Of a DNA stretch of 36,229 nt, positions 8,748-35,638 are shown piece after piece. The notes under the pieces are model-generated. The model saw nothing but the letters and a program-made list of their open reading frames with translations, did not search any database and had not been told where the DNA came from. The position numbers and the translations under genes are program-made. The stretch is from Alistipes sp. (lineage in GTDB: Bacteria; Bacteroidota; Bacteroidia; Bacteroidales; Rikenellaceae): contig JAFTVW010000003.1 in the NCBI GenBank assembly GCA_017465605.1, positions 1 through 36,229 of the forward strand, in the 5' to 3' direction. How positions within the stretch are numbered: position 1 is the first letter of the stretch; each line of letters starts with the position of its first letter.

Positions 8748-8754
8748 AGTTCTA

Positions 8755-9993
8755 TCATCTTGTTAAAAATTCAACATCCTTATATACTTCAATTCCTTCG
8801 TCAGTATATTTTATAATATTCTGCTCCTTCATTGAGTTAATAATACTCTCCATCACACTCATAGGTATATCTCCAAAATAGTCTTTAATATTAGACCATA
8901 AAGAGAATGTAACCACATTAAGTGCAAAATTTGCTAATGCCCTGGCACCCCTGGATAGAAAGCCTCTGTTATTCTCTTCTCTAATCTTGGCGTCTATCAT
9001 TTTTTGAAGCATAAATTCCAGTATATGAAGGGCTAATTGTTCGCAGTTATGTGGCCTATACTCTTGATTGCAGACATAATACCACGAGTTTGGTCTTACG
9101 ATATCCGTACCCAAGATAAGCACTGCGGAAGGGTCATCATCTACATAACCCTCGGACAGAAGTTTTATATCTCCGTCAGCCAATCTTATCTTATCACCAG
9201 CAATGATACTCCCCTTATCTTTGACGGTCTGTTTAAAGAACAATAGTCGCTTCTTCTTGTAAGTAAATAGTGATGCAGGAAGATGCGCATGGAAAACCAT
9301 CGAACCAATTGTTTGGATTGGCAAGAACTCTATTCGAATGTTGCGATGAGCTTGTATTCCTGCAATAGCGGTTTCATACACCTGTTTAGTGCGGGCAACA
9401 ACCAAATCCAACTTGTTCTCCTTCGCCCATTTCTCACACTTAATAGGAGTAAAAATTACTAATTTGGCTGAAACATTATCTTTTTCATTTATGGAGGTTA
9501 AGAAGGTATGAATATCCTCTACAAAATTGAACTTTTCATTTATAATTTCATTCACATAAGGATTTGATGTATTGACAGCCTCCATCAGCATAGGAGTATC
9601 AATGGCAACAATAAATACATCGTATCTTGATATCATATCACATACTTGATCCTGATAGGTATTCCCACCCTGATAGAACTCTCCATTCATATCAGTAAAT
9701 AGAATCTCCATCTTATTATTATTGCCGGAAACAGACAGTTGCAATGTATAGTGATTAAATATTTCCGTTTTGCCAGAATCTACCAAAATAACCTTCTGGT
9801 AGTTCTTCTCCAAACTAGATCGAATATCTATCAACTTCGATGCTATTGGCTCTGATGCATTTTGGGTAACATCTTTCGCTGTCAGTAGTGTATTGATTGG
9901 AGCGTTCGTGAACGCATCAATAATTGCAGCGAGAGCGGAACTCTTGCCCACACGTTGACCACCCATCATCAACACTTTAAGTCCTTCTGCCAT
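8755..9993 (-). CDS. Small GTPase of the operon, copy 1
   Basis: A 412-residue P-loop GTPase. Walker A is GGQRVGKSS (residues 11-19). The G3 region is DMNGE in ILFTDMNGEFYQGG. The strand IDTPMLMEAV and the G4-like TPIKCEKW follow. It shares this unusual motif set with the GTPases at 10876 and 12042: xDxPxLM, then PxKxEKW/PxKxERY in place of NKxD. The C-terminal part (about 320-412) looks like a helical accessory region. It may relate to the DO-GTPase families described in predicted conflict systems; that is recall, not a search result. It starts 2 bases after partner B and is followed by partner A. Confidence 0.82.
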   Translation of the reverse strand: MAEGLKVLMMGGQRVGKSSALAAIIDAFTNAPINTLLTAKDVTQNASEPIASKLIDIRSSLEKNYQKVILVDSGKTEIFNHYTLQLSVSGNNNKMEILFTDMNGEFYQGGNTYQDQVCDMISRYDVFIVAIDTPMLMEAVNTSNPYVNEIINEKFNFVEDIHTFLTSINEKDNVSAKLVIFTPIKCEKWAKENKLDLVVARTKQVYETAIAGIQAHRNIRIEFLPIQTIGSMVFHAHLPASLFTYKKKRLLFFKQTVKDKGSIIAGDKIRLADGDIKLLSEGYVDDDPSAVLILGTDIVRPNSWYYVCNQEYRPHNCEQLALHILEFMLQKMIDAKIREENNRGFLSRGARALANFALNVVTFSLWSNIKDYFGDIPMSVMESIINSMKEQNIIKYTDEGIEVYKDVEFLTR

Positions 9994-9995
9994 AT

Positions 9996-10850
9996 CTACC
10001 TACAAATAGAGAACAACAATACAATTATTCCAACGATGACGGCACAAGCTGCGATCATATATAGCATCTTTTGTCTGCCGAACTTCGCCTCTCTCTGCGC
10101 CTTTGCCCTCATTTGGGCCGCCTTTTGGGGGTTATCCAAAGGAAGAACGTGTTCCAATGGGATGTGTTTTATACGCCTATCATACAACCCCAACTCCTCC
10201 ACAATCTGTTTCCTATACAGATTCGAAGACATCAACAATGCTCCGACCATATCAGGTTCTGCTACCACAACAACCCTATCTGACACCGTCTCGATATAAT
10301 TCTGTCTATTGGCACAATATTCCACAAATACATTAAACTGCCGCAAGCAGAACTTTACGCCATTCACATCGGCATCATAGAGTAGCATCGTGGCAATTTT
10401 ATCTGAAACTGAATCAATATTGTTACTCCAAAACGCAGCAATAGTAGCCAACTTACGAGCATCCTGCACATTGTCCGCAACAAGCATTATCAGAAATGGG
10501 ACAGAACGTCCCGACTCATCCTTATTCTCGCCGAGGATATCTCGTAGTATCAAAACATAACTATCTTCTTCAAGGTGAGTATATACCAACTTATACCCTC
10601 CGTGCGACACAAGCCTAGCACCCGACTTCGGGAAACCATACGGAGAGGCTTGATTTACGAGTAAAATCTTTGGCAGAGCGTCAAGGTGCTTAACTCGCTC
10701 TAATAGTCTCTCATCACTATCTGTTTCAGCTCTTTTCTTTTGAATAGCCAGCAGCGGGAGCAAGTATGTAAATTCGTCATCCATCTCCGAATTGCCGAGA
10801 TACAGGTCTTTGTATCCGCCGACAGAATAGTATGTATAAAATCTCAACAT
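9996..10850 (-). CDS. Tail-anchored partner protein B
   Basis: A 284-residue paralogue of the protein at 7686-8747. It shares YSVGGYKDLYLG at the N-terminus, SHGGYKLVY, and DESGRSVPF, and ends in a 20-residue hydrophobic helix (about 262-282) after a basic stretch, so it is probably tail-anchored with a cytoplasmic body. It lacks the long acidic linker of its paralogue. I chose the ATG at 10850 over the TTG two codons upstream. Its position between two GTPase genes implies a physical or regulatory link with them. Confidence 0.75.
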   Translation of the reverse strand: MLRFYTYYSVGGYKDLYLGNSEMDDEFTYLLPLLAIQKKRAETDSDERLLERVKHLDALPKILLVNQASPYGFPKSGARLVSHGGYKLVYTHLEEDSYVLILRDILGENKDESGRSVPFLIMLVADNVQDARKLATIAAFWSNNIDSVSDKIATMLLYDADVNGVKFCLRQFNVFVEYCANRQNYIETVSDRVVVVAEPDMVGALLMSSNLYRKQIVEELGLYDRRIKHIPLEHVLPLDNPQKAAQMRAKAQREAKFGRQKMLYMIAACAVIVGIIVLLFSICR

Positions 10851-10875
10851 ATTCAATCCGATTTTGGAAGCATAG

Positions 10876-12033
10876 TTAGCGATAGACCTTTATCCGTTCA
10901 ATACCATCTCCGGTATCCTTAATTAAACCGCTATTGGTCAGCTCGACAATCGTATTATTCAGATCATTAAGAGTAATGCGACCAAAAATTCTATTGAAGA
11001 ACTGACTAAACCATGAAGTACTCTGATTGTTTCTCGCCTTATTGAACATAAAACGCAAAATATGAAGTGCTACCTGCTCACAATGCTTGGGAGCGTATTT
11101 AGGTGTTGGATTTGTGTGATGAAACCAAGCCGAAGGGCGTACAATATCGAGGGATTCATCATCAAACTCAAACACTGCTTCCGCATCAGGATTTAATATA
11201 TCCCCTTCTCGAAGAGAATACATATCGCCATTGCTCTTAATTACAATTTTATCCGTAACCTTTGAGCATTTTACAACACTTCCTGTTGCCGTTGTAACAG
11301 TATATGCCGTGCGCATCTCCGAGAAAGCTATGTTTCCTGCTGTTTGCACCGGAATTATCGACACCTCTGTATTGTCCCTTTTTTGAAGATGAGATATCGT
11401 TGAGGCATATCGTTCGAATATTCGATTTTTCACATCTTCTATTTTGCCTTCTTGAATCCATCTTTCACATTTCATTGGCACAAAAAGAACTAATTTTGCT
11501 CCTTGCTTATCCTCTGAATACTCATCAATTGATGTTATAAATGAATGTATTGAATCCGCAACATTTGCCGCATCTGCGATTGCATCGTTCTGCATAAGAT
11601 ATGGAGAATCAACAACTATTACAAAAACATCACAATCTTTCAAATAGTCCAATGTCTCTTGGGTATGATGTCCTCCATGGTCAAAAAATTCTCCTGCGGA
11701 GTCTCTAAACTCAATGTTCATCGTCTTATTGGTTCCAGCTAAGGAAATTTGCATATTGTATGACCAAAAATGTATAGTAGGTCCTTTATCAATAAGAAAA
11801 TCAGAAGCCTTATAAGTGGATAGAAATGACTGAAGTTCCAACCTTTTATTGCTTAGACTCTCTTGCTTCTCTTTGGCGCCATAAATCTCCTTGGTTTCAA
11901 GAATCGTTTTGTCCGAAACCGTCAAAATATTATTAAGCTGTTGAGTGTGTATCATTTGGTCAAAAAGGCTTGACAGCACTGAGGTTTTGCCACATCGACG
12001 ACCACCCATCATAAGTACTTTTAAGCTCGCCAT
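10876..12033 (-). CDS. Small GTPase of the operon, copy 2
   Basis: A 385-residue GTPase closely related to the one at 8755 over its whole length. Walker A is GGRRCGKTS near the N-terminus, G3 is DSAGE, the strand VDSPYLMQ follows, and the G4-like motif is VPMKCERW. Both contain an SWF/NSWYY-type segment and EQ(V/L)ALHILRFM/EFM near residue 320. Two similar GTPases side by side suggest a heterodimer or sequential switches. It starts 8 bases after the GTPase at 12042 and precedes partner B. No membrane segment seen. Confidence 0.82.
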   Translation of the reverse strand: MASLKVLMMGGRRCGKTSVLSSLFDQMIHTQQLNNILTVSDKTILETKEIYGAKEKQESLSNKRLELQSFLSTYKASDFLIDKGPTIHFWSYNMQISLAGTNKTMNIEFRDSAGEFFDHGGHHTQETLDYLKDCDVFVIVVDSPYLMQNDAIADAANVADSIHSFITSIDEYSEDKQGAKLVLFVPMKCERWIQEGKIEDVKNRIFERYASTISHLQKRDNTEVSIIPVQTAGNIAFSEMRTAYTVTTATGSVVKCSKVTDKIVIKSNGDMYSLREGDILNPDAEAVFEFDDESLDIVRPSAWFHHTNPTPKYAPKHCEQVALHILRFMFNKARNNQSTSWFSQFFNRIFGRITLNDLNNTIVELTNSGLIKDTGDGIERIKVYR

Positions 12034-12041
12034 ATCTTCTC

Positions 12042-13076
12042 CTATTTAATGTTAAATATTGTATTTGTTACGACCAATTCATAACCGCTCCTATCTTGGA
12101 TTATATTCTTCCCCATTTTCTTAATCTCGTGGAAGAATTCGTCATCATCTTTCAAGTATGAGACGAATGTATTTATAATACACTCAAAGATGTCCGCTGG
12201 TTGATTTGTCATCCATTCATACTGGTTTGCCACGTATGTCAGCAGATAGTATAGTGGTTGCACACAGAACATAGGCGCAAATTTGGGGTCCTTCCCATAA
12301 AAACGATACTTCGATATCTTTGCTATGCCACCAAGCGCCATATCATTATCCACAAACTTATCGAACTCGACATGCCCTAACGTCTGAATCGGGGTAATTG
12401 CACAGGCAATATTGAATTCCCGACAAAGAGAGATAAGGCCAGCATAGGCACTCTTTACCCTACGATTCAGTTCCTCCAATCTATTATCGTGGAAATATCG
12501 TTCACTTTTAAGAGGAACAAGAAGAATCATTTTGTCCTTGATCCCATTCTTATTTCTCATCAGAAAGTTAGTAACCAACGACACCTCATTCTTCATCTCA
12601 TTATACACTCCATCTTCCTCCATAAGATATGGAGTATCAATCGCCACCATTATCACATTGGACTCTGCGACAAACTCCTCAACCCTCTCCGGCTGCGAAG
12701 TAAGGTACTCTCCGGGGAAGTCTTTTATGTTTATATTTACAGTGTGAGCACGTCCCACCTTACCCATCTCGAAAGAGAATGTGCTCTCCTCCGATGTTGC
12801 CTCAATAGCTCCGGTCTGTGGGGAGTCTTGAATACTGGTCCTAGAAGAGATGATGCTTTGTAGTTGCAACTTCTTCTTTGTCAATACGGCACTTGTTGTA
12901 GGTGTAGGTCTAAAATAAATACCTGCCCCAGCGACAGAATCACGGGTTTCGCTGAATATCGACGCCATCAGCGATGTTTTACCCACAGCACGAGGGCCCA
13001 TCATTGTAACATTCAGGGTCGGAATCTCAGAAACAACCCCTCCTAACTTATCCTTTATAGCACTAAATATTCCCAT
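12042..13076 (-). CDS. Small GTPase of the operon, copy 3
   Basis: A 344-residue GTPase, more divergent than the other two. Walker A is GPRAVGKTS (about residues 27-35), G3 is DFPGE (NINIKDFPGEYL), the strand AIDTPYLME follows, and the G4-like motif is VPLKSERY. The first 20 residues form a short amphipathic lead. The helical tail is shorter than in copies 1 and 2. It lies 10 bases after the dynamin-like gene and heads the GTPase/partner cluster. The three together look like a divergent set from one ancestor. Confidence 0.82.
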   Translation of the reverse strand: MGIFSAIKDKLGGVVSEIPTLNVTMMGPRAVGKTSLMASIFSETRDSVAGAGIYFRPTPTTSAVLTKKKLQLQSIISSRTSIQDSPQTGAIEATSEESTFSFEMGKVGRAHTVNINIKDFPGEYLTSQPERVEEFVAESNVIMVAIDTPYLMEEDGVYNEMKNEVSLVTNFLMRNKNGIKDKMILLVPLKSERYFHDNRLEELNRRVKSAYAGLISLCREFNIACAITPIQTLGHVEFDKFVDNDMALGGIAKISKYRFYGKDPKFAPMFCVQPLYYLLTYVANQYEWMTNQPADIFECIINTFVSYLKDDDEFFHEIKKMGKNIIQDRSGYELVVTNTIFNIK

Positions 13077-13086
13077 AATTATAGTT

Positions 13087-15462
13087 TTAATTGTTTATCG
13101 TTTCGACCGAACTTCTTAAAGAGTTAATACACTCTGCCCACTCGGCAAATGCCGCATTCTCTTTGGCCCTACTCTCAATCTCGCCATGCCAGATAAGACC
13201 CATATTATCGTTGTAGAACTCCTTCAAATCCCTAACACCATTTACGTTAGTTCCTATCTTAACATGAAACTTGTGGACCCTGGAATAGGACAACAGACTC
13301 GGCTGTAACGAGAACTTACCCATCCAATCACGCAGTCGCTTTTGTAGAGGCATCAGCCTGTTAGCCAACTCCTGCCATACACAAGCTGCCTTATCGCTAA
13401 ATTCATGAGGATTACCTCCTGCATACGGGATAAAGTCTTTATGGTCTTTCTCTATAATGTAGAGACTCTCTATCACATAATACTCGGCCGTTCCCTCTAT
13501 ATTTATCTCATAATCCAGCACATAGCGCAAAGCCTCATACAAAGCCGGATACTTCTCTTGTGGAATATAATTGCTAATAATCGCCTCCAACCACTCAACA
13601 GACGGCCCAACTTTTGTGCACTCCCTCGGCAGTGGCAATAGCGACATCTTGCCCTGATTATAAAGGATATTGATAATGTCAAGTTTAACTCTCTGTTGCA
13701 GAGGGTATATCACCGACGTATTGACATCCTCAAACACCTCAAATATGCCGTTGCGCATCTGCTCTATCGCCTCCTCAAATAGTCCCTGAGGTGTTACGAA
13801 ATTACCACTCTTAAAGCGGTACAACAACTCCTCTTCTGTCGGCAAATCCTTATCTATATTACTGAGCAGTCGCTCGTATGCTTTGGTCAACTCCTCGCAC
13901 TCGGCATCCTTTACCTTGGCATATCCGTCATGATCCAAATCATTCATTGCAACATTGAGTGCTTGCAACGTGGGCTCGTACCCATCTCGCTCAAACTTCC
14001 AATCCGTAATAGCTGACATAGGAATTACCTTACCTGCCGTCTTTACCAAGCGCTGGCAGCAGTTCACTGCATCGGCAACCTCTCGGTCAACACACTCTCG
14101 AAGGTTGCTGTCAAGATATTCGAGATTATTTGCAATCATTTGGAGGTGAGGAACCAGAAGGTTACTATTTACATCGTTGCGGTCTGCGGCATTCACTGCA
14201 ACATAAAAACCGAATGGCAACTGCTTTAACGCCAAATCATCCTTTATGTCTTGCAAATTCTGTATGTTACACTTCGGTCCATAAGGTATGGCGTTAATTG
14301 CATAGGATATCCACTTTTGAGGGTTACGTGCCGAGAGATTCTCGATTAACTTATTGTATATCTTCTCCTCTCGCTCCGGCACGGAGCCTCCCGTATTGGC
14401 AGGGCAAAAGACATCTATTGCACCATCGCAATCTTCGCATAATACTCTGAACATCTCACTCTCAACGGCATCAGCATTCACCGAAGGGCCGAGACCAACC
14501 GTATCCACAAACTCAATACGCCCGCAATCCTGATTTGGGAACTCACAAAAGATATTGACAGACTTCACCGCCAAATACCAATAATACATATGTCGCCACA
14601 CTATCTGCTTCGGCGAGCCATCCGGATTCTGCTCCTTTACTCGTTCCTTAACATCACTCGGATTGGCACTGCTTGGAATCTCCGACTTATCTGTATATTC
14701 ACGATATTGGGCAACAAACTTCATCACCTCGTCTTTGTCGGTGTACTCAACAACACCTCGTCCTAAGAACGTCCCATAGAAGTTTCTGTGTCCGATGATA
14801 TTATTCTTGATTAACTTCTCTATCTCAGTTTTATCCTTCCCCACATAACCCGATACGTCTATCGCAGAGAGGTCATCCAAGGAATTCAAGCAGAACTTCC
14901 GCTCCGGCATTAACATCTCCAGTTTTACCCTCACATTGTCCAAAAACTCCGATACTGTATAAAACTCTATCTCTGCCCTAAATGGGGTCTGAGTCTTATG
15001 ATTATGAATCACGGAAACTGCCCCCGTGCAACTGGTTCCATCATACGCCGGAATTACCTCATTTGGCAAACCGGTCATAGATTGCAGAAATGTACTTTTA
15101 CCCTGTCGTTCATACCCAATGAATGCAATTCTCACTGACTCTCGACTGAATCGTTTCTGCAACATAGCGAGGCTCTCGATTGCAACATCTATCTTTTGAA
15201 TCGCAGATATACAATCTAATTGATTGAATGCAGTCATTGCATTAGGGTCGGCAGACAATGTTCGGCAGAACTCTCCCTCCTTATTATCTCTCTGTGCATT
15301 AACCGCCTGTACACATTGTTGGAACCTCACAACACTCTCTCGCAGCCTTACAAGTTTTTCTATCTCAGAATTAACCTCTTGTAACTTTCCGGCTCCTTCA
15401 TACTCTCCTCGACCTAACCTCATATCGAGAATGCGGTCAATTTGCTGGGTTATGGTACTCAT
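13087..15462 (-). CDS. Dynamin-like large GTPase
   Basis: A 791-residue protein. A helical, coiled-coil-like N-terminus (about 1-105) precedes the GTPase domain: Walker A GYERQGKST (116-124), an SCTGAVS switch I containing the conserved threonine (144-150), and G3 DTVGLG (320-325). A large insert separates switch I and G3. The long C-terminal part (about 470-791) is mostly helical, as in bacterial dynamin-like stalks. Such proteins remodel or guard membranes, and some act in phage defence. There is no clear membrane helix. It sits between the M48 gene and the three small GTPases with gaps of 10-11 bases. Confidence 0.82.
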   Translation of the reverse strand: MSTITQQIDRILDMRLGRGEYEGAGKLQEVNSEIEKLVRLRESVVRFQQCVQAVNAQRDNKEGEFCRTLSADPNAMTAFNQLDCISAIQKIDVAIESLAMLQKRFSRESVRIAFIGYERQGKSTFLQSMTGLPNEVIPAYDGTSCTGAVSVIHNHKTQTPFRAEIEFYTVSEFLDNVRVKLEMLMPERKFCLNSLDDLSAIDVSGYVGKDKTEIEKLIKNNIIGHRNFYGTFLGRGVVEYTDKDEVMKFVAQYREYTDKSEIPSSANPSDVKERVKEQNPDGSPKQIVWRHMYYWYLAVKSVNIFCEFPNQDCGRIEFVDTVGLGPSVNADAVESEMFRVLCEDCDGAIDVFCPANTGGSVPEREEKIYNKLIENLSARNPQKWISYAINAIPYGPKCNIQNLQDIKDDLALKQLPFGFYVAVNAADRNDVNSNLLVPHLQMIANNLEYLDSNLRECVDREVADAVNCCQRLVKTAGKVIPMSAITDWKFERDGYEPTLQALNVAMNDLDHDGYAKVKDAECEELTKAYERLLSNIDKDLPTEEELLYRFKSGNFVTPQGLFEEAIEQMRNGIFEVFEDVNTSVIYPLQQRVKLDIINILYNQGKMSLLPLPRECTKVGPSVEWLEAIISNYIPQEKYPALYEALRYVLDYEINIEGTAEYYVIESLYIIEKDHKDFIPYAGGNPHEFSDKAACVWQELANRLMPLQKRLRDWMGKFSLQPSLLSYSRVHKFHVKIGTNVNGVRDLKEFYNDNMGLIWHGEIESRAKENAAFAEWAECINSLRSSVETINN

Positions 15463-15473
15463 AAATTATTGTT

Positions 15474-16250
15474 TTAATTTGTTTTTGCGAACTCCTTAAT
15501 ATTGTCAAGCCTCGACCGAATAAATGGATGATGCTGATACAGTTCAATAAAACTTTGGTGTCCGACTATAGAGCTCCTCTCAAAAATCTTATCGAACAAA
15601 CCTTCAATAAGGTTGACATCTTTACAACACAGATAACCCGCCCTATCGGCCGTATATTCGGCACATCTGTACCACTCATTTAGGGGCACATCTATCGAGT
15701 CACTCACAACAGACCCAAGCATCTCCGACTTGTTGTTCAGTCTATCCAATAGCCCCTTAATCGTGTGGCACATCATATTTTTTTGCAAAATATGTCCTAA
15801 CTCGTGCCCAATAACAAAACTCAACTCTCCATCCGACAGACCTACTACCGTCTTTCTGCTTACGAGAACTATTGGGGCATTGTCTGTTCCTACGCTCAAA
15901 GCGTTTATTCCTCTCAAACGATTGGTTACATATACCGCAGGAACTTGCTCCACGTTCAGACTCTTGCAACAATCTTGTAGCACTCCATATAGGCGTGGGT
16001 GGTTGCTCTCGTCGACCAACCGCCCCTCCAATCTAACATTTTGAATCTGCTCCTTACAATACTTATCGGCAAATAGAAGAAGTGCCCTGCGCACCAACTT
16101 ATTTGATAATATTGCATCCATATAGTTGTCGCAAGGGTATGCATACGGAAGAGGTGCTCCTCTCTTTGGAGAAAGGAACTTTAAGGTCCTCGCCGATTCT
16201 GCAATCCCTTCGGCTTTACTCTCCAATATGGCAAGCCACTTCAAACTCAC
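15474..16250 (-). CDS. M48-like metallopeptidase, upstream copy
   Basis: A 258-residue zinc peptidase with HELGH at residues 149-153 and the third ligand in AEYTADRAG (197-205). It shares with the protein at 6762 the YxVTxR...INA region before the catalytic helix and the ADRAGxLxCxD block after it, but lacks the zinc-ribbon tail and has no clear membrane helices. The only plausible full-length start is a GTG at 16250; the next in-frame ATG is about 43 codons later. The two M48 enzymes bracket the GTPase genes, which suggests proteolysis triggered by the GTPases. Confidence 0.88.
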   Translation of the reverse strand: MSLKWLAILESKAEGIAESARTLKFLSPKRGAPLPYAYPCDNYMDAILSNKLVRRALLLFADKYCKEQIQNVRLEGRLVDESNHPRLYGVLQDCCKSLNVEQVPAVYVTNRLRGINALSVGTDNAPIVLVSRKTVVGLSDGELSFVIGHELGHILQKNMMCHTIKGLLDRLNNKSEMLGSVVSDSIDVPLNEWYRCAEYTADRAGYLCCKDVNLIEGLFDKIFERSSIVGHQSFIELYQHHPFIRSRLDNIKEFAKTN

Positions 16251-16271
16251 TATGCGTAAATTAAGTTACTG

Positions 16272-16508
16272 TTATTGCCAACCATCTCCGCCACAGAACG
16301 AGCACTCGTACTGATATCCGTTATACCAGTAATATCCGCCATCACAATGCGGACAATCTTTTGGCAAAGATTTGACATTGATTCTAGGCAGCCTCTTAGG
16401 CTTTAAAACTTTGTATATATCATCACTATACTTACTAGCATTACGACATCCACATAGTAGAGTGCCGGCCATTGTGGCTACCACCAAAATTCTTAGAAAA
16501 TTCTTCAT
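16272..16508 (-). CDS. Small lipoprotein with half a DnaJ-type zinc motif
   Basis: A 78-residue protein with a basic start, a hydrophobic helix and a lipobox ending LLCGC, so it should be lipidated at Cys20. The mature C-terminal part has CPHCDGG and, 15 residues later, CSFCGGDGW: two CxxCxG units, as in one zinc site of DnaJ. It lies 21 bases upstream of the M48 gene and 12 bases after the membrane protein gene. It could present a zinc knuckle in the periplasm; no named family. Confidence 0.7.
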   Translation of the reverse strand: MKNFLRILVVATMAGTLLCGCRNASKYSDDIYKVLKPKRLPRINVKSLPKDCPHCDGGYYWYNGYQYECSFCGGDGWQ

Positions 16509-16520
16509 GTTCTTAAAATA

Positions 16521-17000
16521 TTAATATCCTTTATATATTCTAGCAATCTCTTTTACCTCATCCTTACTCGGAAGTTTCTTCATAATGTTTAGAAATGCTT
16601 CAATTATATTATCATCTGAATAACTTGGTTTATGCATCAGATCGATGATCGCAACGGCGAATTTGTAAGTAAAATAGATATTACAACAAGCACTTATACC
16701 CAATGCTGCAACAATCGCCACTAATGGTCCGAGTCCCGGAATACAAAAGACCGCAAATGTTGCTGCTTTGCACGCCAAATAGTAACTTGCTATCCCCGTA
16801 GCTGCGGCTACCGCAATACGCTTCGGATCATCGCCAAACTTTGAATTAGCCTCAGATCTAATTGCAAAGAACATAGTAGTCCAACACGTACCTACGGCAA
16901 CTGCATCCAATGTACCAAAAAATCCCAAAGGGCTAATTCCCGCTGCTGCAAGCAAAGCGGTTCTAACGATAGACTTGTATCGTAAAGGAATCTTATTCAT
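16521..17000 (-). CDS. DUF697-like membrane protein
   Basis: A 159-residue protein with three or four hydrophobic helices (about residues 12-50, 65-90 and 92-120), rich in alanine and glycine, with a GISPLGFFGTLDAVAVGTCW stretch and CIPGLGPLVAIV. This resembles DUF697 (YcjF-type) domains, which are often encoded next to or fused with GTPases. A charged helical tail follows. It fits as a membrane platform for the GTPases later in the operon. The family assignment is by resemblance only. Confidence 0.65.
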   Translation of the reverse strand: MNKIPLRYKSIVRTALLAAAGISPLGFFGTLDAVAVGTCWTTMFFAIRSEANSKFGDDPKRIAVAAATGIASYYLACKAATFAVFCIPGLGPLVAIVAALGISACCNIYFTYKFAVAIIDLMHKPSYSDDNIIEAFLNIMKKLPSKDEVKEIARIYKGY

Positions 17001-17011
17001 ACTCTCAACTA

Positions 17012-17125
17012 TTACTTAAACCGCCCTTTTATAGTCTCTATATATTCCTTGTAGTGCTGCCCAATATGGATAACAGCGTGTTTCGCAACTTCTATTAATT
17101 GCCTTTGAATTGTTGGAGGTAACAT
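17012..17125 (-). CDS. 37-residue microprotein in the operon
   Basis: A short frame begins MLPPTIQRQLIEVAKHAV and ends YIETIKGRFK. It is predicted to be one amphipathic basic helix without a membrane segment. It ends 12 bases before the DUF697-like gene, matching the operon's spacing, and fills most of a 200-base gap. It could be a real small subunit, an antitoxin-like regulator, or the tail of a decayed gene. Confidence 0.45.
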   Translation of the reverse strand: MLPPTIQRQLIEVAKHAVIHIGQHYKEYIETIKGRFK

Positions 17126-17200
17126 ATAAAACCAAATTTTAGTTAAACAATCTTTTCTGCCTTACCCTTTATTTATTATATCCTTCTGCTAAAATCACCA

Positions 17201-17998
17201 CTATTTTATCGTAAGTTTCTCTATTTCGTTTAATATTTGAGTCCTATTATCTCCAGAAGTATAAGTTTTGAAGACCTCCTTAACGACCTTTTTGGGCTCT
17301 ATTGTTATCTCAAACAATGAAATTGGTTCTGTGTATTCTAATAGTATATCATGTATATACTGATATTTACAAGATATTAAATCGTTATAACTCGTTATAA
17401 TACAGGACATTGCATCATCACAAGAAACATAAAGTCTTCCGATATATTGAGTCCCTGATTTTAACTTTATCAAATCATATGGTATACAACGGCCCTCACA
17501 AATAATCATATAATAGATAACTAGGAGTACTGATGATGAGTAAGACCATCTTACAATTTCTATAAGCCTTGCATACAGAGACTGCTGCCATTTCGTAGCT
17601 CTTTTAGAGGAAAAAAGGCCCAAGAGAATATGTCGAACATCACTCATTCTATTATTCATATTTATTACTTGAGTCAACTCAACTGCCATACAAGCAAACA
17701 CTAAAAGATTGATGCTTAGCTCATCATCAAACATAGCGGGATTTTTCTTTAAACGAGCAACTTGTTCTTCTAAAAAGTGTTGGCTATCATTTTTTATCCT
17801 CTGCATATTTAACCAACCCAAAATACCTGAAAGGTCGACTATTCCTGAAATACGAGAAACAACAAAGCTTAATGCTCTATCAATTTTTTCATTGTTCGTG
17901 AGAACAGTATCGAAGATTCTGTAATCTTCGATACCTAGCGTCTGTTCATAGTGTCGCAACTTTGCTGTATCTTTCAATAAATCGTAAGGATTGTTCAT
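17201..17998 (-). CDS. Unknown helical protein, operon gene 4
   Basis: A 265-residue protein, mostly alpha-helical with scattered hydrophobic patches (about 94-112 and 150-168) that might be buried helices rather than membrane spans. No signal peptide and no known motif. It is visibly AT-rich, more so than the GTPase genes. It follows 18031-18810 by 32 bases and has a similar size and helical character, which hints at related roles, but I cannot show homology. As a lineage-specific gene in a conflict-like operon it could be a sensor or effector. Confidence 0.65.
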   Translation of the reverse strand: MNNPYDLLKDTAKLRHYEQTLGIEDYRIFDTVLTNNEKIDRALSFVVSRISGIVDLSGILGWLNMQRIKNDSQHFLEEQVARLKKNPAMFDDELSINLLVFACMAVELTQVINMNNRMSDVRHILLGLFSSKRATKWQQSLYARLIEIVRWSYSSSVLLVIYYMIICEGRCIPYDLIKLKSGTQYIGRLYVSCDDAMSCIITSYNDLISCKYQYIHDILLEYTEPISLFEITIEPKKVVKEVFKTYTSGDNRTQILNEIEKLTIK

Positions 17999-18030
17999 AA
18001 TAAAGTGTTACTCTTTATAAAAAAGTATAT

Positions 18031-18810
18031 CTATACAAAACTCCCGTCCAAGACAGCATAACCATATTTATCGATTGTATTTAATATGCAGCTTCCCTTC
18101 GGGTGTCTTTGTTTAGTTATTTGATATAATACATCCCTACATCTATAGTTATTGTATATATTCCCTTTATAATATGGCATTATATGACTAATTTCATGCT
18201 TACACAGGCCGTCTAGTGTCAATTCGTATTTTAGAGTAGACAAAAGAACAGTAACAGCATCATCAACCCACTGCGATTCGTCTGTGCTGGGCATCATACT
18301 CCTTTTACAATGCAAGACGATTGATAATGCTGCAATAAGCAACACTTTGGCCCATTGGCGACTTTTCTCCTCCCATTCTTCCTCAAGAAGTTTCATTCCA
18401 TCACGGATACTAAAAGTCCTAGCAATATTCCATATTAATCGTGGCCCATCTGTGATATAATTGATTGACGTAGTCTTCTCCCGCTCTTCTTGGATCATAT
18501 TGGCAATAACAAATAAAACACCTTTTAATTCTTCTCTAATACAACTAGGGCTATGTTGCATATAATCAGCATACGCACGCATAAATTCGTTAAAGTCTTG
18601 CTGAATCCCCATTGTTACTATAGTGCCAAAAGTATTGGCAGATAAAGTAACATATGGATTACCATAAATCAATCTACCTATTGTTGAACTGCCTATATTT
18701 TCAAGACCTTGGTCAATGTTATAAGATGTTAAATATTGCTTGATGTTTGTATCAGCAAAAATATCGAACGGATATCTATTGAAGTCGATTTTCATATTGT
18801 GTGTGCACAT
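18031..18810 (-). CDS. Unknown helical protein, operon gene 3
   Basis: A 259-residue protein whose ATG overlaps the stop of the upstream gene by one base (TAATG), the mark of translational coupling; this decides the start at 18810. A hydrophobic helix (about 148-168, KVLLIAALSIVLHC) lies in the middle. Cysteines and histidines cluster towards the end (CKHEISH around residue 210). No recognised family. Its coupling to the anti-sigma-like gene suggests it could take part in sensing or regulation. Confidence 0.7.
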   Translation of the reverse strand: MCTHNMKIDFNRYPFDIFADTNIKQYLTSYNIDQGLENIGSSTIGRLIYGNPYVTLSANTFGTIVTMGIQQDFNEFMRAYADYMQHSPSCIREELKGVLFVIANMIQEEREKTTSINYITDGPRLIWNIARTFSIRDGMKLLEEEWEEKSRQWAKVLLIAALSIVLHCKRSMMPSTDESQWVDDAVTVLLSTLKYELTLDGLCKHEISHIMPYYKGNIYNNYRCRDVLYQITKQRHPKGSCILNTIDKYGYAVLDGSFV

Positions 18811-19163
18811 TATCTAGATGATATTTCATCTAATTCCTTACTCATTCTGCTTAATCTGTCATACAGTCCATTTGTCTTGGATAATTTCGATTTTTGCTTT
18901 GGAATGAATGAATTATTTTGCTCCGGTGCAAATGCCGCTGCTGAATATGCTATATCTGAGAATGATGCTTCATTCATCGGAATACAATTTTCAGAAATCT
19001 CTAATTGTTCACCTAAATAATCAACTGTGTCATTATCCATTAAGCATAAGACCCGCTCATACTCTTCGGGATGCTCGCACAGATACTCCCTGACAGCGGC
19101 TTGCTCATCAGCAGTCGCACCCCCCTCAATATAGCAAGCTATCAGTTCGTCACTTATTCTCAT
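18810..19163 (-). CDS. Putative anti-sigma factor, soluble
   Basis: A 117-residue protein whose first 45 residues (ISDELIACYIEGGATADEQ, then EHPEEYERV) resemble the N-terminal sigma-binding helices of Bacteroidetes anti-sigma/FecR-type proteins. The His-Cys-Cys zinc signature of ZAS proteins is absent, and there is no membrane helix, which is unusual for an anti-sigma factor. The C-terminus is basic and coiled-coil-like. It overlaps the sigma gene by 14 bases, the usual arrangement for a regulator and its sigma. Function inferred from context and weak resemblance. Confidence 0.55.
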   Translation of the reverse strand: MRISDELIACYIEGGATADEQAAVREYLCEHPEEYERVLCLMDNDTVDYLGEQLEISENCIPMNEASFSDIAYSAAAFAPEQNNSFIPKQKSKLSKTNGLYDRLSRMSKELDEISSR

Positions 19164-19824
19164 ACCACTCCTTTTTAATCTGTTCTATAATAACCTTGAC
19201 CTCTTTAAGTGCCCTTGCCTTATTCATATCCACATAATGAGCATCAGGAATAACAACCCCTCCTTTATAGGTGGTCACTCTATTTTCTCTCCTCCTTCTC
19301 TCGGCAATCATCTCGGCAATCTCCTTATGATTATATCCCTCAAGTTCCTTAATAAGGATAAAGCGATAATCATCTCTCTTCAATCGGTTGACGGCCTCCA
19401 TCAGCATCACCAACTTTTCATTGCCGCCCTCTTGATTCGGTTCAGGCAATGGTTTATCTCCACCACTTATTACGATAGAATTGTCCTTCACCCCAAAACC
19501 TATCAATTCTGTCCTCTTTGCCAAGAAAAGGTGCGAAGCGACAGAACAAAACCATGTTCTAAACCCACATCTCCACTTGAACGATTTCAAAGGCATCCAA
19601 TCCCCATCTTTGCCCTTGAACTGTATATAGAGATAGTTTATCAAATCTTCAAGATATGCCAACGTTCCATAGTACCGCCACGCATAAAACTTCAAGTCGT
19701 TCTCGTACCTATCATACAACAGATAAAGCATCGCCTCTTCATTCCCCGCAACAACAAGATCAACAATTTCCTTGTCGGTCATAGTGCAATATGGCTTATC
19801 TACCGTCTGTAACATTCCCGTCAT
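19150..19824 (-). CDS. ECF-type sigma factor
   Basis: A 224-residue sigma-70-family factor. The sigma-2 region (about residues 15-90: IVDLVVAGNEEAMLYLLYDRY, EDLINYLY, FRTWFCSVASHLFLAKR) and the sigma-4 region (about 140-220: LKRDDYRFILIKELEGYNHKEIAEMI) are clear. Region 4 has an insert of roughly 20 residues before the second helix of the HTH. I chose the ATG at 19824, preceded by AAGGTGGT; a GTG at 19884 would place the start inside an inverted repeat, and an ATG at 19782 is also possible. It is the first gene of the 13-kb operon, so it may drive its own operon. Confidence 0.85.
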   Translation of the reverse strand: MTGMLQTVDKPYCTMTDKEIVDLVVAGNEEAMLYLLYDRYENDLKFYAWRYYGTLAYLEDLINYLYIQFKGKDGDWMPLKSFKWRCGFRTWFCSVASHLFLAKRTELIGFGVKDNSIVISGGDKPLPEPNQEGGNEKLVMLMEAVNRLKRDDYRFILIKELEGYNHKEIAEMIAERRRRENRVTTYKGGVVIPDAHYVDMNKARALKEVKVIIEQIKKEWYENK

Positions 19825-19877
19825 TCGATGGCAATCACCACCTTTTTTTACGTATATCTTGCTATTTTCTGTCGAGA

Positions 19878-19892
19878 GTTCCACGAAAGAAC
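19878..19892 (-). repeat. Inverted-repeat arm 1 of the switch
   Basis: The plus strand reads GTTCCACGAAAGAAC, the exact reverse complement of the copies at 20103 and 20187. It lies 53 bases upstream of the chosen sigma-factor start. Confidence 0.9.
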
Positions 19893-20102
19893 TATATGGT
19901 TAGGCCAAATTCTTACAAGTCAACTATTTACAAGCAATAATATATGTGAGTTTTGAAACAATATTATCATTCGCTGGTTTGATTAATAACAAACGTTAAT
20001 ATTACTTCTATTCGATATAGTGGCTGTAATTATCGTATAAATCAGCATCTTAGTTACTCTTATCAAAAGATAAGTATTTGTCCGCCAATTGGATGAGTGA
20101 TT

Positions 20103-20117
20103 GTTCTTTCGTGGAAC
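20103..20117 (+). repeat. Inverted-repeat arm 2a of the switch
   Basis: GTTCTTTCGTGGAAC, identical to the copy at 20187 and inverted relative to 19878. It starts 84 bases before arm 2b, in direct orientation. Confidence 0.9.
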
Positions 20118-20140
20118 GACGCAGAAAAGAATTTGTTATT

Positions 20141-20174
20141 ATTGTGTCCGTTTAGAATATTTTTATTAATTTTG
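20141..20174 (+). promoter_or_regulatory. Promoter-like sequence inside the invertible segment
   Basis: TAATTTTG at 20167-20174 matches TAnnTTTG perfectly. The upstream element is weak: ATTG/TTGTG at 20141-20146, with 20-22 bases of spacing. It points right, against the recombinase gene. It lies exactly between the two direct copies of the 15-base repeat. Confidence 0.5.
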
Positions 20175-20186
20175 CACTGCGTTTGG

Positions 20187-20201
20187 GTTCTTTCGTGGAA
20201 C
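20187..20201 (+). repeat. Inverted-repeat arm 2b of the switch
   Basis: GTTCTTTCGTGGAAC, ending 2 bases before the stop codon of the recombinase gene. It pairs with the copy at 19878 in inverted orientation. Confidence 0.9.
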
Positions 20202-20203
20202 AC

Positions 20204-21397
20204 TTACTCCAAACCACCGATTATCCCCCTATTAGCATCGTCGATTACAGAATTTTCCAACATTGTTAGATAAATATGTGTGGTTTGTTCCGAAGTATGG
20301 CCCATTCCTTGGCTGATGACAGAGATGGGCACATTGTGGTTGCGGGCGGCGGTTGCCCAACTATGGCGTGAAGTATAGGATGTCAGTTTGCAGCCACATC
20401 CCAAAATCTTTGACAATCTGCCGAGTAGGCGGTTATGAGTATTCAGCGCAACCCGATACTGCTCGTAGGCCTCTGCGGCATCAAGCGAGGATAAAATCGG
20501 AAAAACATATGGAGAATTTATGCCTGCGTAGCGGTCAATTATTTGCTGTATGCTCGGCTCAATCTTAACCGATAATAGTTGCCCGGTCTTGCGACGGGCA
20601 TAGCAAATGGTTCCATTTTGTAAGTTCGACCTGCGCAGATAGGCTATATCCACAAACGCCATTCCCCGTGTGCAATAGCTAAAAATAAACATATCTCGGC
20701 AGAGCGCAAGCGGAGAACCGTCTTCCAACTCCAAACGATATAGTTGCGCTATAATTGATTCTGCAACAGCACGTTTACGTGTACGGTCAATGCCCGTGTA
20801 AACCTCTGTAAATGGGTACTGTTGCTCGATGAGTTTTTGTCTTACCGCCTTGTTGTAGATAGCACGTAACACCCGCATATAGAACGACACAGAGTTACGC
20901 ACTAAACCCCGCTGAACAAGGAACGCATTATAATCTGTAATCACCTGCTCGGTCAGGGCCGACAATGGCAGGCGAACATCCCCCAGAAAGCCACAAAAAC
21001 TACTCATTGTTTTTTCGTAATTATTAGCTGTACCAAGGCGATTGCCGGCCCTTAACTGCTCAATCTGAGCCCGCATATAATCCACCATAAGAATATGACT
21101 TTGAGGCGATTTGTAACGATTGATTACATCCTCCACGGAGTAGTCCACTCCGCCGCCATCGAGGTCTGCAATAATCCTCCGAAGCAACGCCACATCGCTA
21201 TCTATACGATTTTGAGTCATTGTGCGATTTGGGGCCAGAACAACCACCCTTCCCTCATCGGCATCCCAATCCGACGAATGCACACGAAGTTTTGTAGTAA
21301 TCTGTTGAGTTTTGCGATTGTGGGTGACTTGATAGAAGATAACACCTGCCCTATCCTTAACTGACGATGGGCGTAATTTCACTTTTATTGTTGCCAT
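20204..21397 (-). CDS. Tyrosine recombinase of the Bacteroidales promoter-switch (Tsr/Mpi-like) type
   Basis: A 397-residue recombinase. It has an N-terminal arm-binding region, a SAM-like core-binding domain (about 100-190) and the catalytic domain. The catalytic residues seen are Arg244 in YCTRGMAFVD, Lys270, Arg344 in SYTSRHSWATAA, His367 in GMGHTSEQTT and Tyr376 in HIYL. The TRGMAFVD and SxxSRHSWA wording is typical of Bacteroidales recombinases that invert local promoters, more than of phage integrases. Tyr341 replaces the usual His of HxxR, as is common in this group. Its 3' end abuts one arm of the inverted repeat, which strongly suggests it acts there. Confidence 0.9.
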   Translation of the reverse strand: MATIKVKLRPSSVKDRAGVIFYQVTHNRKTQQITTKLRVHSSDWDADEGRVVVLAPNRTMTQNRIDSDVALLRRIIADLDGGGVDYSVEDVINRYKSPQSHILMVDYMRAQIEQLRAGNRLGTANNYEKTMSSFCGFLGDVRLPLSALTEQVITDYNAFLVQRGLVRNSVSFYMRVLRAIYNKAVRQKLIEQQYPFTEVYTGIDRTRKRAVAESIIAQLYRLELEDGSPLALCRDMFIFSYCTRGMAFVDIAYLRRSNLQNGTICYARRKTGQLLSVKIEPSIQQIIDRYAGINSPYVFPILSSLDAAEAYEQYRVALNTHNRLLGRLSKILGCGCKLTSYTSRHSWATAARNHNVPISVISQGMGHTSEQTTHIYLTMLENSVIDDANRGIIGGLE

Positions 21398-21561
21398 AAT
21401 ATTACATTAGTTAAAATCAAAAGAACGCACTATTGAGTTACGTATATTCCCAACAATACGTTTTACGACAAAAAGTAATCAGCAAAGCGACCCATAACTA
21501 TTTTCGGAATTATATAGCTCAGCGCTCCCTCTCCATCGCTCCGATTTTTCTGTGCGAGGCA

Positions 21562-21593
21562 TTTGTTTATTCCAAATAATATAATTATATTTG
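21562..21593 (+). promoter_or_regulatory. Promoter of the susCD operon
   Basis: TTTG (21562-21565), exactly 20 bases, then TATATTTG (21586-21593): a perfect Bacteroidetes housekeeping promoter. The start of transcription should be near 21600, leaving a leader of about 54 bases before susC. Confidence 0.9.
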
Positions 21594-21653
21594 CATATTA
21601 TGAAGGATGTGTATCCTACGTAAAACTAACTATAAACCTAAAAAACAAGTTCT

Positions 21654-24600
21654 ATGAAAAAACTGCTACACCTTTACGCAAGGTTGCTAATCGTGGCCAT
21701 TGCGTGCTGTTTCAGTTTGACCGCCGTTGCGCAAAAAGTATCTGTGCAGGGTGTTGTGACGGATGACGAAAACAACCCTCTCCCAGGCGCTTCTGTGGCC
21801 ATTTTGGACAGTTCTTCGCTCACCGTGGGGGGGGGGTACTGTAACCGACACAAAAGGCGAATTTAGCCTATCTGCATTGCCGGGACAGTCACTCGAAATT
21901 TCGTTCCTCGGCTACACCACTCAAAAGGTCGCCATTCTCCCGCAGAAGACCTATTATCAAATCAAACTGGGCACTGACAGCAAGGCTGTTGAAGAGGTCG
22001 TTGTCGTAGGTTACGGCACCGAGAAGAAGGTAAACCTCACCGGCTCTGTCTCCTCCGTCTCCACCGAGGAGTTCACCTCCCGCCCTATCACCCAACTTTC
22101 GACCGCATTGCAGGGTATTGCTCCCGGCGTAACCGTCACCACGGCAGGTGGTGCTCCGGGTGCCGACACGGGTAATATCCAGATTCGTGGTATCGGCTCC
22201 TTCGGAGGCTCCGTCTGCACTCCGCTCATCCTCATTGATGGCGTAGAGGGCGATATGAACTCCGTGGATGCTTCGCAGATTGACCAGATTACCGTATTGA
22301 AGGATGCTGCTTCGGCGGCCATCTACGGTTCACGTGCCGCCAACGGCGTTATCCTCATCACCACCAAGCGTGGCAGCAAGGATAAGTTTGGCGTTACCTA
22401 CCGAGGCTACGTAGGTTGGCAGCAGCCGGTTGTATATCCCGACGTAGTGAATGCGGAGGAGTATATGATTCTCTCCCGTCAGGCTTCGGAGAATGATGGC
22501 AACGCCTCCATCTACACCGACGAGTATATCGCCAACTACCGCAAGAACCACTTCCTCGACCCGGATGCATTCCCGATGATTGATTGGCAGAAGCGACTGA
22601 TGACAGGCAATGGTCTTACCCACAACCATATCGTCACTATGAATGCCGGCACAGACCGCATCCGCAATATGACCTCGTTTGGTTATCTCGACCAGAACGG
22701 TATCATCAAGAATGCGGAGTACGACCGCTTCAACCTGCGCAACAACCTCGACGTTCAGTTGCACAAGAAGTTGAAGTTGAGTCTGGACATCTCCGGCACA
22801 TACGGCACTCGCAAAATCAACCCTTACCAGAGCGGCATCTTCTCGTTTATGAATTCGAAAGACCCGTTGATGCTTGCGCAGTGGTCCGACGGCAGCTACG
22901 CCTCATTCACGGGTGGTACGACCAACCCGCTGCCTATGATTGAGCAGGGTGTTGGCGGAAACCGCAAATATCAGAGCCTCAACTTGAAGACCGCTGCCGT
23001 ACTCGAATACAAGCCGTTGAAGTGGCTCACCATCGAGGGTAAGGTTGCGCCGCAGTTGCAGGCGACCAAGAACCACACGTTCATTGACCTCGTAGAGTAC
23101 CATTCCGACCCTTACGGCTCAATCTCGGCCATCTCCAACGCCGAGTTCAACACTCTTGACGAGAGCATCACAACCAAGTTCACGGGCTACTACCACGGTA
23201 TGATTACCGGAGCGCACAGCTTCGGCAAGCACCACCTCAAAGTTTTGGTCGGCGCCTCCTACGAGAATGTCGAGTATGCCACTTTGAGCGCATATCGTCA
23301 GGACTTCATCTATCCGCAGTACGATGTTATTGATGCGGGTGGCAAGAATGAGTTCAAGGACAACGGCGGTACACGCACACAGCTTGCCCTCGCCTCCTTC
23401 TTCGGCCGTGTTAATTACAACTACGACAACCGCTATCTGTTCGAGGCCAACCTCCGTTACGACGGCTCCTCACGCTTCTCGAAGCGCAACCGCTGGGGCT
23501 TGTTCCCATCCTTCTCGGCCGCTTGGCGTATGAGCGAGGAGGCGTTTATGGATAAGGCTCGCAACGTCATCACCGAGTTGAAGATTCGTGCATCCTACGG
23601 TACGCTCGGTAACCAGAACATCGGCGGCGAGTACCCTACCATTCAGGAGCTCACAATAAGTTCCATCTCGGCCGGTGGCAACATATACCCTATCATCGCA
23701 CAGCAATCGCTGGCCAATGAGGATATCACTTGGGAGACTACCCGTATGGCAGATATCGGTATTGACGCTACGCTGTGGGAGAAGTTCACAATCACCGCCG
23801 ACATCTACCACAAGACCACTGACGGTATCCTTATGAAGCTCGACATCCCATCGACCATCGGTCTCAACGCACCTTATCAAAACGCAGGTGTTGTTGTGAA
23901 TAAGGGTTGGGAGTTGGCTCTCGGTTACAACAACCGCTGGGGCGACTGGTCGTTTGGCGTTCAGGCAAACGTCTCCGACGTCATCAACAAGATTGTAGAT
24001 ATGAAGGGTACCTACGGCACCAGCGGCGTTATCCGCAATCAGGAGGGCTCCTCAATCAACTCTCTCTACCTGCTCAAACATCTGGGCATCGTGCAGACGC
24101 AGGAGCAGGCCGACTGGGTGAATGCCAACTGTCCGCAGTTCGGTCGAGAGACCAAGCCGGGCGACCTCATCTATGAGGACTACAACGGCGACAAGAAGAT
24201 TGACGAGATGGATAAGCAGATTGTAGGCTCGATGATTCCTCGCTACACCTATGGTCTTACGCTCAACATCGGCTGGAAGGGCATCAACCTGAGCGCACAG
24301 TTCCAAGGTGTTGGTAAGGCGAATGCCTACATCAGCGGTGCTTATACGCAGCCTGCCGTGAGCGGTGGTACCTTCCAGAAGAGCCACCTCGACAGTTGGA
24401 CACCAAGCAACACCGACGCAAAGTACCCGCGCCTCTCCTATGCCAGCGACCTGAACACCAAGGTCTCTACCTTCTGGATGGCGAATGCGGCATACTGTCG
24501 TCTGAAAAACCTGCAACTCAGCTACACCTTCCCGAAGAAGGTGTTGTCGGCCCTCAAAATCAAGGGTCTGATGGTTTATGCCAACGCTACGAACCTCTTC

Positions 24601-34308: not shown

Positions 34309-34596
34309 TTATCTATCCTTACGCTTCTCGATTTGTCGTTTGATAGCATCAAGAGCCAAGTCCACAGCCTCCTCAAATGTGCGAGCCTGCTGCTCGGTAA
34401 CTATATCTCCGCCGGGGATATGAAGTGCCACTGAGGCCACCTTGTTTCCCTTCTCGTTGTCTTTTTCAAGTCGCAAAACGACATCTACACCTGTCGGACG
34501 GTCGGCGAAACGCTCCAATCTCGACATCTTCTTCTCTACAAATTCGAGCAATTGTTTGCTGGCATCGAACTTCAACGATTGAATCTTAACATCCAT
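34309..34596 (-). CDS. hpf: Ribosome hibernation-promoting factor (HPF/RaiA family)
   Basis: A 95-residue short-form protein with the family's beta-alpha-beta layout: VKIQSLKFDASKQLLEFVEKKM, then RLEKDNEKGNKVASVALHIP, then the acidic-basic helix ARTFEEAVDLALDAIKRQIEKRK. It binds the decoding region of idle ribosomes. It lies 60 bases downstream of xerC; this pairing recurs in Bacteroidales and marks core genome at the right end of the window. Confidence 0.92.
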   Translation of the reverse strand: MDVKIQSLKFDASKQLLEFVEKKMSRLERFADRPTGVDVVLRLEKDNEKGNKVASVALHIPGGDIVTEQQARTFEEAVDLALDAIKRQIEKRKDR

Positions 34597-34656
34597 AGTA
34601 GTAATGTTTTATGGTTAAGGGGAGTCGCTTCATTACGACTTTGTCCCAAAAATGTT

Positions 34657-35559: not shown

Positions 35560-35638
35560 AAAGTTTCGGAATGACAAACGACTTCTGTTGCAGAAGAGAA
35601 TCCCCGTCAGTTCATCTGCAAGGGTGTACTCCTCAAAG

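Follow-up and report, generated by a model that had tools for sequence, protein, structure and literature searches.

A 36,229-bp stretch of an Alistipes genome, referred to below as the window, carries a 13-kb run of peptidase and GTPase genes that begins next to a set of short repeats and a tyrosine recombinase gene. The question raised by this locus is whether these repeats are the arms of an invertible promoter and, if so, which kind of operon such a switch would serve. A phase-variable promoter had been proposed in the initial annotation, and this proposal is very probably right. It is the best reading of the locus because close relatives are exact outer-arm isomers of each other and occur in both orientations. 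As judged from sequence comparison, the window would represent a self-contained phase-variation cassette, with a probability of about 0.85, in which the recombinase inverts the segment between sites A and C and the promoter is now OFF. The features of the locus are as follows.

6762-7661, minus strand: second M48 peptidase (PF01435), likely end of the 13-kb run
7686-8747, minus strand: second companion protein
8755-9993, minus strand: DO-GTPase2 protein (PF19993, 31.7 bits, cut-off 27)
9996-10856, minus strand: companion protein of the DO-GTPases
10876-12033, minus strand: DO-GTPase2 protein (PF19993, 36.7 bits, cut-off 27)
12042-13076, minus strand: DO-GTPase2 protein (PF19993, 27.4 bits, cut-off 27)
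13087-15462, minus strand: dynamin-like GTPase, 791 aa (PF00350 at 17.8 bits, below the cut-off of 27)
15474-16250, minus strand: M48 metallopeptidase (PF01435)
16521-17000, 17201-17998 and 18031-18810, minus strand: three unannotated operon genes
18810-19163, minus strand: small partner of the sigma-like protein, 117 aa, also adjoining the sigma-like gene in G024, G027 and G034
19150-19824, minus strand: ECF-sigma-like protein, first operon gene (TIGR02937 sub-threshold, Sigma70_r2 and Sigma70_r4_2 weak; orthologs found)
19878-19892, minus strand: site A, outer arm on the operon side, GTTC-N7-GAAC, exact 15-mer, with an equivalent arm in relatives
19893-20186, no strand: putative invertible segment, 294 bp between the outer arms, with homologous segments both ways round in relatives
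20103-20117, plus strand: site B, inner, exact 15-mer, oriented as C
20167-20174, plus strand: TAATTTTG, candidate -7 box of the promoter, directed away from the operon (OFF), with an equivalent box in relatives
20187-20201, plus strand: site C, outer arm on the recombinase side, exact 15-mer; the equivalent site is the crossover between loci L059 and L060
20204-21397, minus strand: tyrosine recombinase, 397 aa, probable inverter (PF17293, PF13102, PF00589; orthologs in relatives)

Recombination Sites and the Segment between Them

The 15-mer GTTCTTTCGTGGAAC is perfect at 19878 on the minus strand and at 20103 and 20187 on the plus strand, all three positions being those given in the initial annotation; site A reads GTTCCACGAAAGAAC at 19878-19892, and its reverse complement stands at 20103-20117 and 20187-20201. 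When up to two mismatches are allowed, three further copies turn up in the own genome, all of them with two mismatches, and no exact copy was found in it beyond the three of the window. Inverted exact 15-mers placed 60-600 bp apart occur in the window as two pairs at the switch locus and one further stretch of three overlapping 15-mers beside a tRNA-Ser gene; in 60 dinucleotide shuffles of the window, such pairs averaged 0.05 and never exceeded 3. The third stretch (247/312) was rejected as an inverton, as it is part of a repeat of the tRNA-Ser 3' end. That gene lies at 308-396 on the minus strand, and two 36-bp copies (1-36 and 246-281, 97% alike) resemble its 3' end but run the opposite way, an arrangement like that at integration hot spots.

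The GTTC-N7-GAAC site is a partial palindrome composed of two short inverted half-sites and an asymmetric 7-bp centre, and half-sites around an asymmetric centre are the usual form of a tyrosine-recombinase crossover site. Apart from an overlap at site A, the 294-bp segment holds no listed gene of at least 80 aa. Regarding the sigma-like gene, its listed GTG start at 19884 falls inside site A, so that a start at ATG 19824 or 19782 is more likely.

Inversion in Relatives

The strongest evidence comes from loci L059 and L060, two MAG contigs of 15 and 4.8 kb, respectively (RGIG1648, Goat_Cecum-1, and RGIG2949, Goat_Rectum-1), which carry the exact arm sequence of the window and a recombinase 82% identical to its own, L059 having the same three-site layout. 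Both contigs are 99.95% identical over 4198 bp, site C included, and past this site L060 matches L059 on the other strand until its contig ends inside the segment. When L059 was flipped in silico through the outer arms, the last 149 bases of L060 matched at 149 of 149 positions, with 0 mismatches, compared with 90 mismatches when unflipped and 93 after an inversion through the inner site. The inverted form that the initial annotation had proposed to look for in related genomes is present, and the arms it had paired, 19878 with 20187 and not with 20103, agree with these isomers. Inversion through site B was discarded as an account of these isomers, as it leaves 93 mismatches where the outer arms leave 0, and it is also disfavoured by the alignments of L059, L065, L073 and L060 with the interior of the window, in which the strand stays the same across the inner site.

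Both orientations are found more widely. By BLASTN, at 62-73% identity, the interior of the window is turned the opposite way relative to the recombinase in L065, L073, L059, L052 and G014 and the same way in L060 and G083. A comparison of the segment with 180 genomes of the genus gave, besides the own one, G181, where it is oriented as in the window relative to the recombinase, and G077, where it is turned round, these two appearing to be contigs of L060 and L052. The scan of relatives, with one genome per species, covered 29 loci and added MAG loci, many of them from ruminants, under labels such as Rikenellaceae, Alistipes, Bacteroidaceae and Bacteroidales. It gave nine complete segments (L053, L054, L057, L058, L059, L062, L065, L066 and L078), four of which, L057, L058, L062 and L078, are contigs of G037, G027, G024 and G073, each counted once. 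Together with the window, G068, G083 and G014, they make up 13 complete orthologous segments; left out of this count were L052, L056, L060, L061 and L063, with contig ends too near, as well as L055 and L064, where arms are missing. Judging by box and alignment, six of the 13 are OFF (the window, L053, L054, L062, G068 and G083) and seven are ON (L057, L058, L059, L065, L066, L078 and G014), and the ten segments with an exact box divide into five and five.

Inner copies of the site with at most one mismatch lie 84-89 bp from an outer site in the window, L054, L056, L059, L060, L062, L065, L073 and G083, and the promoter stands between inner and outer site in all six such loci present in the alignment. 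The copy of L053 has two mismatches and is 98 bp away, and six complete segments (L057, L058, L066, L078, G068 and G014) lack an inner copy. It is possible that site B binds the recombinase or that, as a direct repeat with C, it would allow loss of the promoter by excision.

The Candidate Promoter and Its Orientation

The box TAATTTTG at 20167-20174 lies on the plus strand inside the segment and points away from the operon, as first described, which fits the OFF state that had been thought possible for the window. Its form, TAnnTTTG, is the -7 consensus of Bacteroides according to passages of PMC4747536 and PMC8748976. Since the box stands between sites B (20103) and C (20187), only inversion through the outer arms moves it. 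By arithmetic, such an inversion between A and C brings it to about 19905-19912 on the minus strand, approximately 80 bp before ATG 19824; in the present window, no TAnnTTTG occurs between site A and this codon. Among the 13 complete segments, 10 have an exact, outward TAnnTTTG 20-25 bp from one arm and none has it at the other end, compared with a mean of 1.07 and a maximum of 4 shuffled segments carrying the motif near either end (500 rounds). At the same aligned place stand TAACTTTA in L059 and L065 and TAAATTAG in L053. As the only -33 candidate seen by eye in the window is a TTG at 20142, which is a weak element, the promoter of the window is plausible, not proven.

Other sequences might also initiate transcription. 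The window has 11 TAnnTTTG boxes on each strand, and five of those on the minus strand lie inside operon genes (8064-18763), so that stretches of the operon could be expressed independently of the switch. A scan of 19700-21800 for E. coli-type promoters gave 10 sites, compared with 5.6 (sd 2.8) in shuffles; two weak ones inside the segment (19992-19963 and 19918-19891, 9/12 matches) aim at the operon in its current state and count against a clean OFF state.

The present orientation could also have a function of its own, the switch then being a two-way selector whose promoter would now give an antisense RNA over the recombinase gene, perhaps reaching a SusC/SusD-type operon from 21763. This is rather unlikely. 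The SusC/SusD genes do lie downstream on the plus strand, and no terminator-like site was found in 19700-21800, but a separate TATATTTG box precedes the SusC gene at 21586. Furthermore, the genes upstream of the recombinase vary among relatives and are often on the recombinase strand, and because of these differences a conserved second target is not seen.

The Recombinase and Its Link to the Arms

The recombinase scores above the Pfam cut-offs for Arm-DNA-bind_5, Phage_int_SAM_5 and Phage_integrase. Its reading frame is intact and ends at 20204, two bp separating the stop codon from site C, which bears out the earlier statement that the gene ends two bases from one arm (arm end 20201). In a search of NCBIfam, no curated invertase model matched; the seven families obtained at E <= 1 all belong to the Xer or integron types and score far under their cut-offs. 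All 16 recombinases compared have the stretches CTRGMAF, GMGH and IYL, and 15 of them have Y-T-S-R (Y-T-A-R in G083); these stretches presumably hold the catalytic residues. The viral contigs searched gave no relative of the recombinase. A second integrase-type gene of the window (34309-35664, Phage_integrase and SAM_1) adjoins a gene for an S30AE ribosome factor.

Matches to the recombinase at E <= 1e-60 were found in 40 of 150 genomes, the own one included, and eight relatives have at least 70% full-length identity. In seven of these eight, complete inverted GTTC-N7-GAAC arms directly follow the recombinase gene, and in the eighth, G077, the contig stops after one arm. Wide regions were taken for 16 of the 40 matching genomes, comprising these eight and eight others at 47-67% identity, and the latter have no GTTC-N7-GAAC inverted arms: in G084, one GTTC-N7-GAAC stands within the recombinase gene, G059 and G084 have another inverted repeat near the recombinase end (18 and 16 nt, respectively), and the remaining six have inverted repeats of 13 nt or less only. 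The motif was also not found at the 12 scanned loci with 43-52% identical recombinases (L067-L072, L074-L077, L079 and L080), nor were such arms found at L055, whose recombinase is 86% identical and is followed by 334 bp of DNA, or at L064 (66%). These loci without the site count against the switch reading. Two of the 12, L070 (Bacteroides timonensis) and L072 (B. cellulosilyticus), have a 47-48% identical recombinase adjoining a different inverted repeat with copies about 330 bp apart.

The 7-bp centre of the site varies between species, taking seven forms over 13 loci, and it matches from arm to arm in 12 of them, with L066 as the exception; the one arm mismatch of L065 is outside the centre. 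A table of 14 loci was made from the 13 complete segments and L073, the latter entering this table only, being without a perfect recombinase-side arm. Four recombinases in it are broken, by two stops (G014), a missing N-terminus (L065), an internal deletion (L066) or a missing C-terminus (L073). Where the recombinase is full length, the two arms are identical throughout (10 of 10 loci); where it is broken, they are so in 1 of 4 (Fisher p 0.011, a value that is only a guide, because related loci are not independent events). With regard to orientation, the broken loci count 0 OFF and 4 ON and the full-length ones 6 OFF and 4 ON, and the proposal that broken loci are always ON was rejected as not significant (p 0.085). 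Near 10616 of L073, the remainder of the shortened recombinase gene lies directly at an arm, and the promoter segment is ON.

These losses are relevant to another alternative, in which the switch was once active and is now frozen OFF, with the recombinase intact but silent and the operon cryptic or dependent on internal promoters. The four broken genes indicate that loss of the inverter occurs in this family, the isomers come from relatives and not from the own species, and the boxes in the operon genes, together with the E. coli-type matches toward the operon, could supply the internal transcription. Yet the recombinase of the window is full length, its three sites are perfect, the arms differ in three of the four broken loci and in none of the ten full ones, and all four broken loci are ON, none OFF, so that a frozen switch is considered unlikely. 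As for the repeats being attachment sites of an integrase that inserts or excises an element, this is highly improbable and was rejected: the recombinase family does include integrases and two of the sites are direct repeats, but the L059/L060 isomers show the segment inverted with the recombinase gene left in place, and the segment is only 294 bp long and holds no listed gene of at least 80 aa, bar the overlap at site A.

Under the preferred reading of a phase-variable promoter, the recombinase (20204-21397) would recombine the oppositely oriented outer sites A (19878) and C (20187) and thus invert the 294 bp between them, which would carry one outward promoter adjoining one arm. In the OFF state, that of the window, transcription from the promoter would run in the direction opposite to the operon and enter the recombinase gene at its 3' end. 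Once ON, the promoter would stand about 80 bp before ATG 19824 and turn on the sigma-like gene, its small partner and the following M48, dynamin-like and DO-GTPase genes. We infer from the sequence that the window's own copy probably flips, that the box would be an active promoter and that the genes may form one operon.

The Putative Operon behind the Switch

The first operon gene had been called a sigma gene; candidate sigma-70 regions 2 and 4 occur in it in order, with sub-threshold HMM scores: TIGR02937 reaches 30.5 bits with a cut-off of 42.9, and Sigma70_r4_2 (E 0.011) and Sigma70_r2 (E 0.02) stay below their curated cut-offs. A sequence search of the PDB at E <= 0.1 gave no sigma match. 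For the small partner encoded at 18810-19163, no family match was found, and an anti-sigma role is a guess. The same two genes occur in G034 (58% and 43% identity), without inverter arms and with a fixed TATATTTG box about 75 bp before the listed start codon of the sigma-like gene. At L085 of this genome (5718-17472), an LRR protein and type III-A CRISPR genes (Cas10, Csm2, RAMPs and Csm4) come next after the two, which is an adjacency only.

Concerning the following genes, the dynamin-like protein was matched at E <= 1e-20 in 1 of 150 genomes, the own one. Both companion proteins (9996-10856 and 7686-8747) have the stretch YYSVGGYKD in common, as seen by eye, and a GAP1-type match was not found for them in Pfam even at E <= 5. 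Because of the 200-bp gap at 17001-17200 and the boxes inside genes, a single 13-kb transcript is not assured. PADLOC gave weak matches only for 10 cargo proteins, among them one GTPase (PDC-S02 0.022, LeoA 0.024) and an M48 peptidase (RmrA 0.0013, capP 0.012), and a defence assignment on this basis was not accepted, the matches being weak. The operon may act in intracellular conflict or stress, to judge from its gene content. The cargo does not look like a surface locus, in contrast to the classical cases cited in the initial annotation. Beyond the GTPase genes, at 4101-5078, lies a gene whose product matches the NCBIfam model for the N-terminus of the 'A1S_2505 family phage non-structural protein' (112 bits, cut-off 45).

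Modularity of the Switch among Relatives

Pairs of loci were compared by BLASTN at E <= 1e-4 using 1500 bp of the cargo side. The window has its segment in common with L059 or L065 (65-70%), but not the cargo-side DNA, and the reverse is seen with L058 or L062, with which it has the cargo-side DNA in common (75-79%), but not the segment. In the same manner, L057 and L066 have the segment in common (86% over 183 bp) without the cargo side, and L065 and L066 the cargo side (71%) without the segment; in both pairs, the change falls at most a few bases from site A, as seen by eye. Some pairs, for example L054 and L062, have segment and cargo both in common. As judged from these alignments, the switch is modular, segment and operon reassorting between genomes with the break at site A. 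By hypothesis, the recombinase itself could exchange operons at site A; ordinary homologous exchange together with selection would equally account for the reassortment.

On the other side, the common DNA upstream of the recombinase extends for 37-153 bp in most sharing pairs and for 229-400 bp in three close pairs, and in several loci it includes a hairpin, recognized by eye, followed by T's. The 400 bp upstream of the recombinase in the window gave no match to the other 18 loci.

The cargo of the relatives was assigned by Pfam on selected genes, with one of several similar-sized genes scanned for HSP70 in G027. In that genome, the switch is followed by NusG-like, sigma-like, acyl-carrier, GYF_2 and M48 genes (the last 63% identical to that of the window) and an HSP70 gene. 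Dynamin-family proteins are found twice, as two of them with an AAA protein in G037 and as two with a sub-threshold DO-GTPase2 in L059. The cargo of G073 has FHA, kinase, PP2C and TssR-type proteins and that of L066 RyR and TIR-LRR proteins; G068 has a NusG-like gene with capsule-sugar enzymes, G014 a NusG-like gene with M48, and G083 a fimbrillin-type operon. At L030/L058, L031 and L034, a NusG-family gene comes first after the switch, also before HSP70 and M48 genes and not only before capsule genes.

A broader reading, possible and offered here tentatively, is that recombinase and flippable promoter form a plug-in switch exchanged between unrelated operons at site A, which would place predicted intracellular conflict systems under bet-hedging. 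Under the same tentative reading, site A would mark one border of the switch, and the opposite border would be formed in many relatives by a terminator-like hairpin preceding the recombinase gene. The conflict systems so controlled would be the GTPase/dynamin, HSP70, kinase-TssR and TIR-LRR operons, in addition to surface structures. The label 'conflict system' would here follow from the cargo domains, by comparison with passages of PMC7159879.

Comparison with Known Systems and Significance

By locus architecture, the window can be likened to BF2766/Tsr19 and IVp-I of Bacteroides fragilis. As described in passages of PMC4747536, a tyrosine recombinase gene is also there followed immediately by an invertible promoter with a TAnnTTTG -7 box and more than two repeat copies, and an ECF sigma gene is part of the distant IVp-II region. 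According to the same passages, BF2766 also inverts a distant promoter, whereas the genome of the window has no other exact site; IVp-I drives extracellular polysaccharide, unlike the cargo of the window; and extra repeats between promoter and gene accompany lower expression, whereas the extra site of the window lies behind the promoter. A second likeness is to the IP-ARG of human-gut Bacteroidales, for which passages of PMC8748976 describe an invertase gene adjoining an invertible promoter, a -7 box TANNTTTGY like that of the window and horizontally spread invertases with different cargo (glycan loci and resistance genes). These differ from the window in their cargo and in being located on integrative conjugative elements, and Pfam scans of the larger ORFs of the window found no conjugation genes.

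Concerning the cargo, the DO-GTPase conflict systems, as portrayed in parts of PMC7159879, resemble the window in having more than one DO-GTPase gene in a row and membrane-anchored-looking companions. The window differs from them in giving no match to GAP1 or another named partner, as well as in having dynamin-like and M48 genes and an invertible promoter; that paper does not once use the term 'phase variation' in its main text. Promoter inversion in Bacteroidales has been described, in passages of PMC4747536, PMC8748976, PMC11892184, PMC10939037 and PMC5903667 taken jointly, for capsules, outer-membrane proteins, fimbriae and some resistance genes, and a search of titles and abstracts of the open-licence PMC literature gave no paper on an invertible promoter driving DO-GTPase or dynamin operons. 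The architecture is thus known in Bacteroidales, from Tsr19 and the invertible-promoter resistance loci, and the conflict-type cargo together with the modular exchange is the new part.

One recombinase lineage, with 66-94% identity among the pairs listed, appears to take the same switch to GTPase, dynamin, chaperone and signalling-kinase operons as well as to a capsule operon and a fimbrial one. If the switch works as proposed, a share of the cells would keep these candidate conflict systems off, which would reduce what they cost, and, if this is true, the orientation of the arms in sequencing reads may provide a simple marker of selection for such systems in uncultured gut bacteria.
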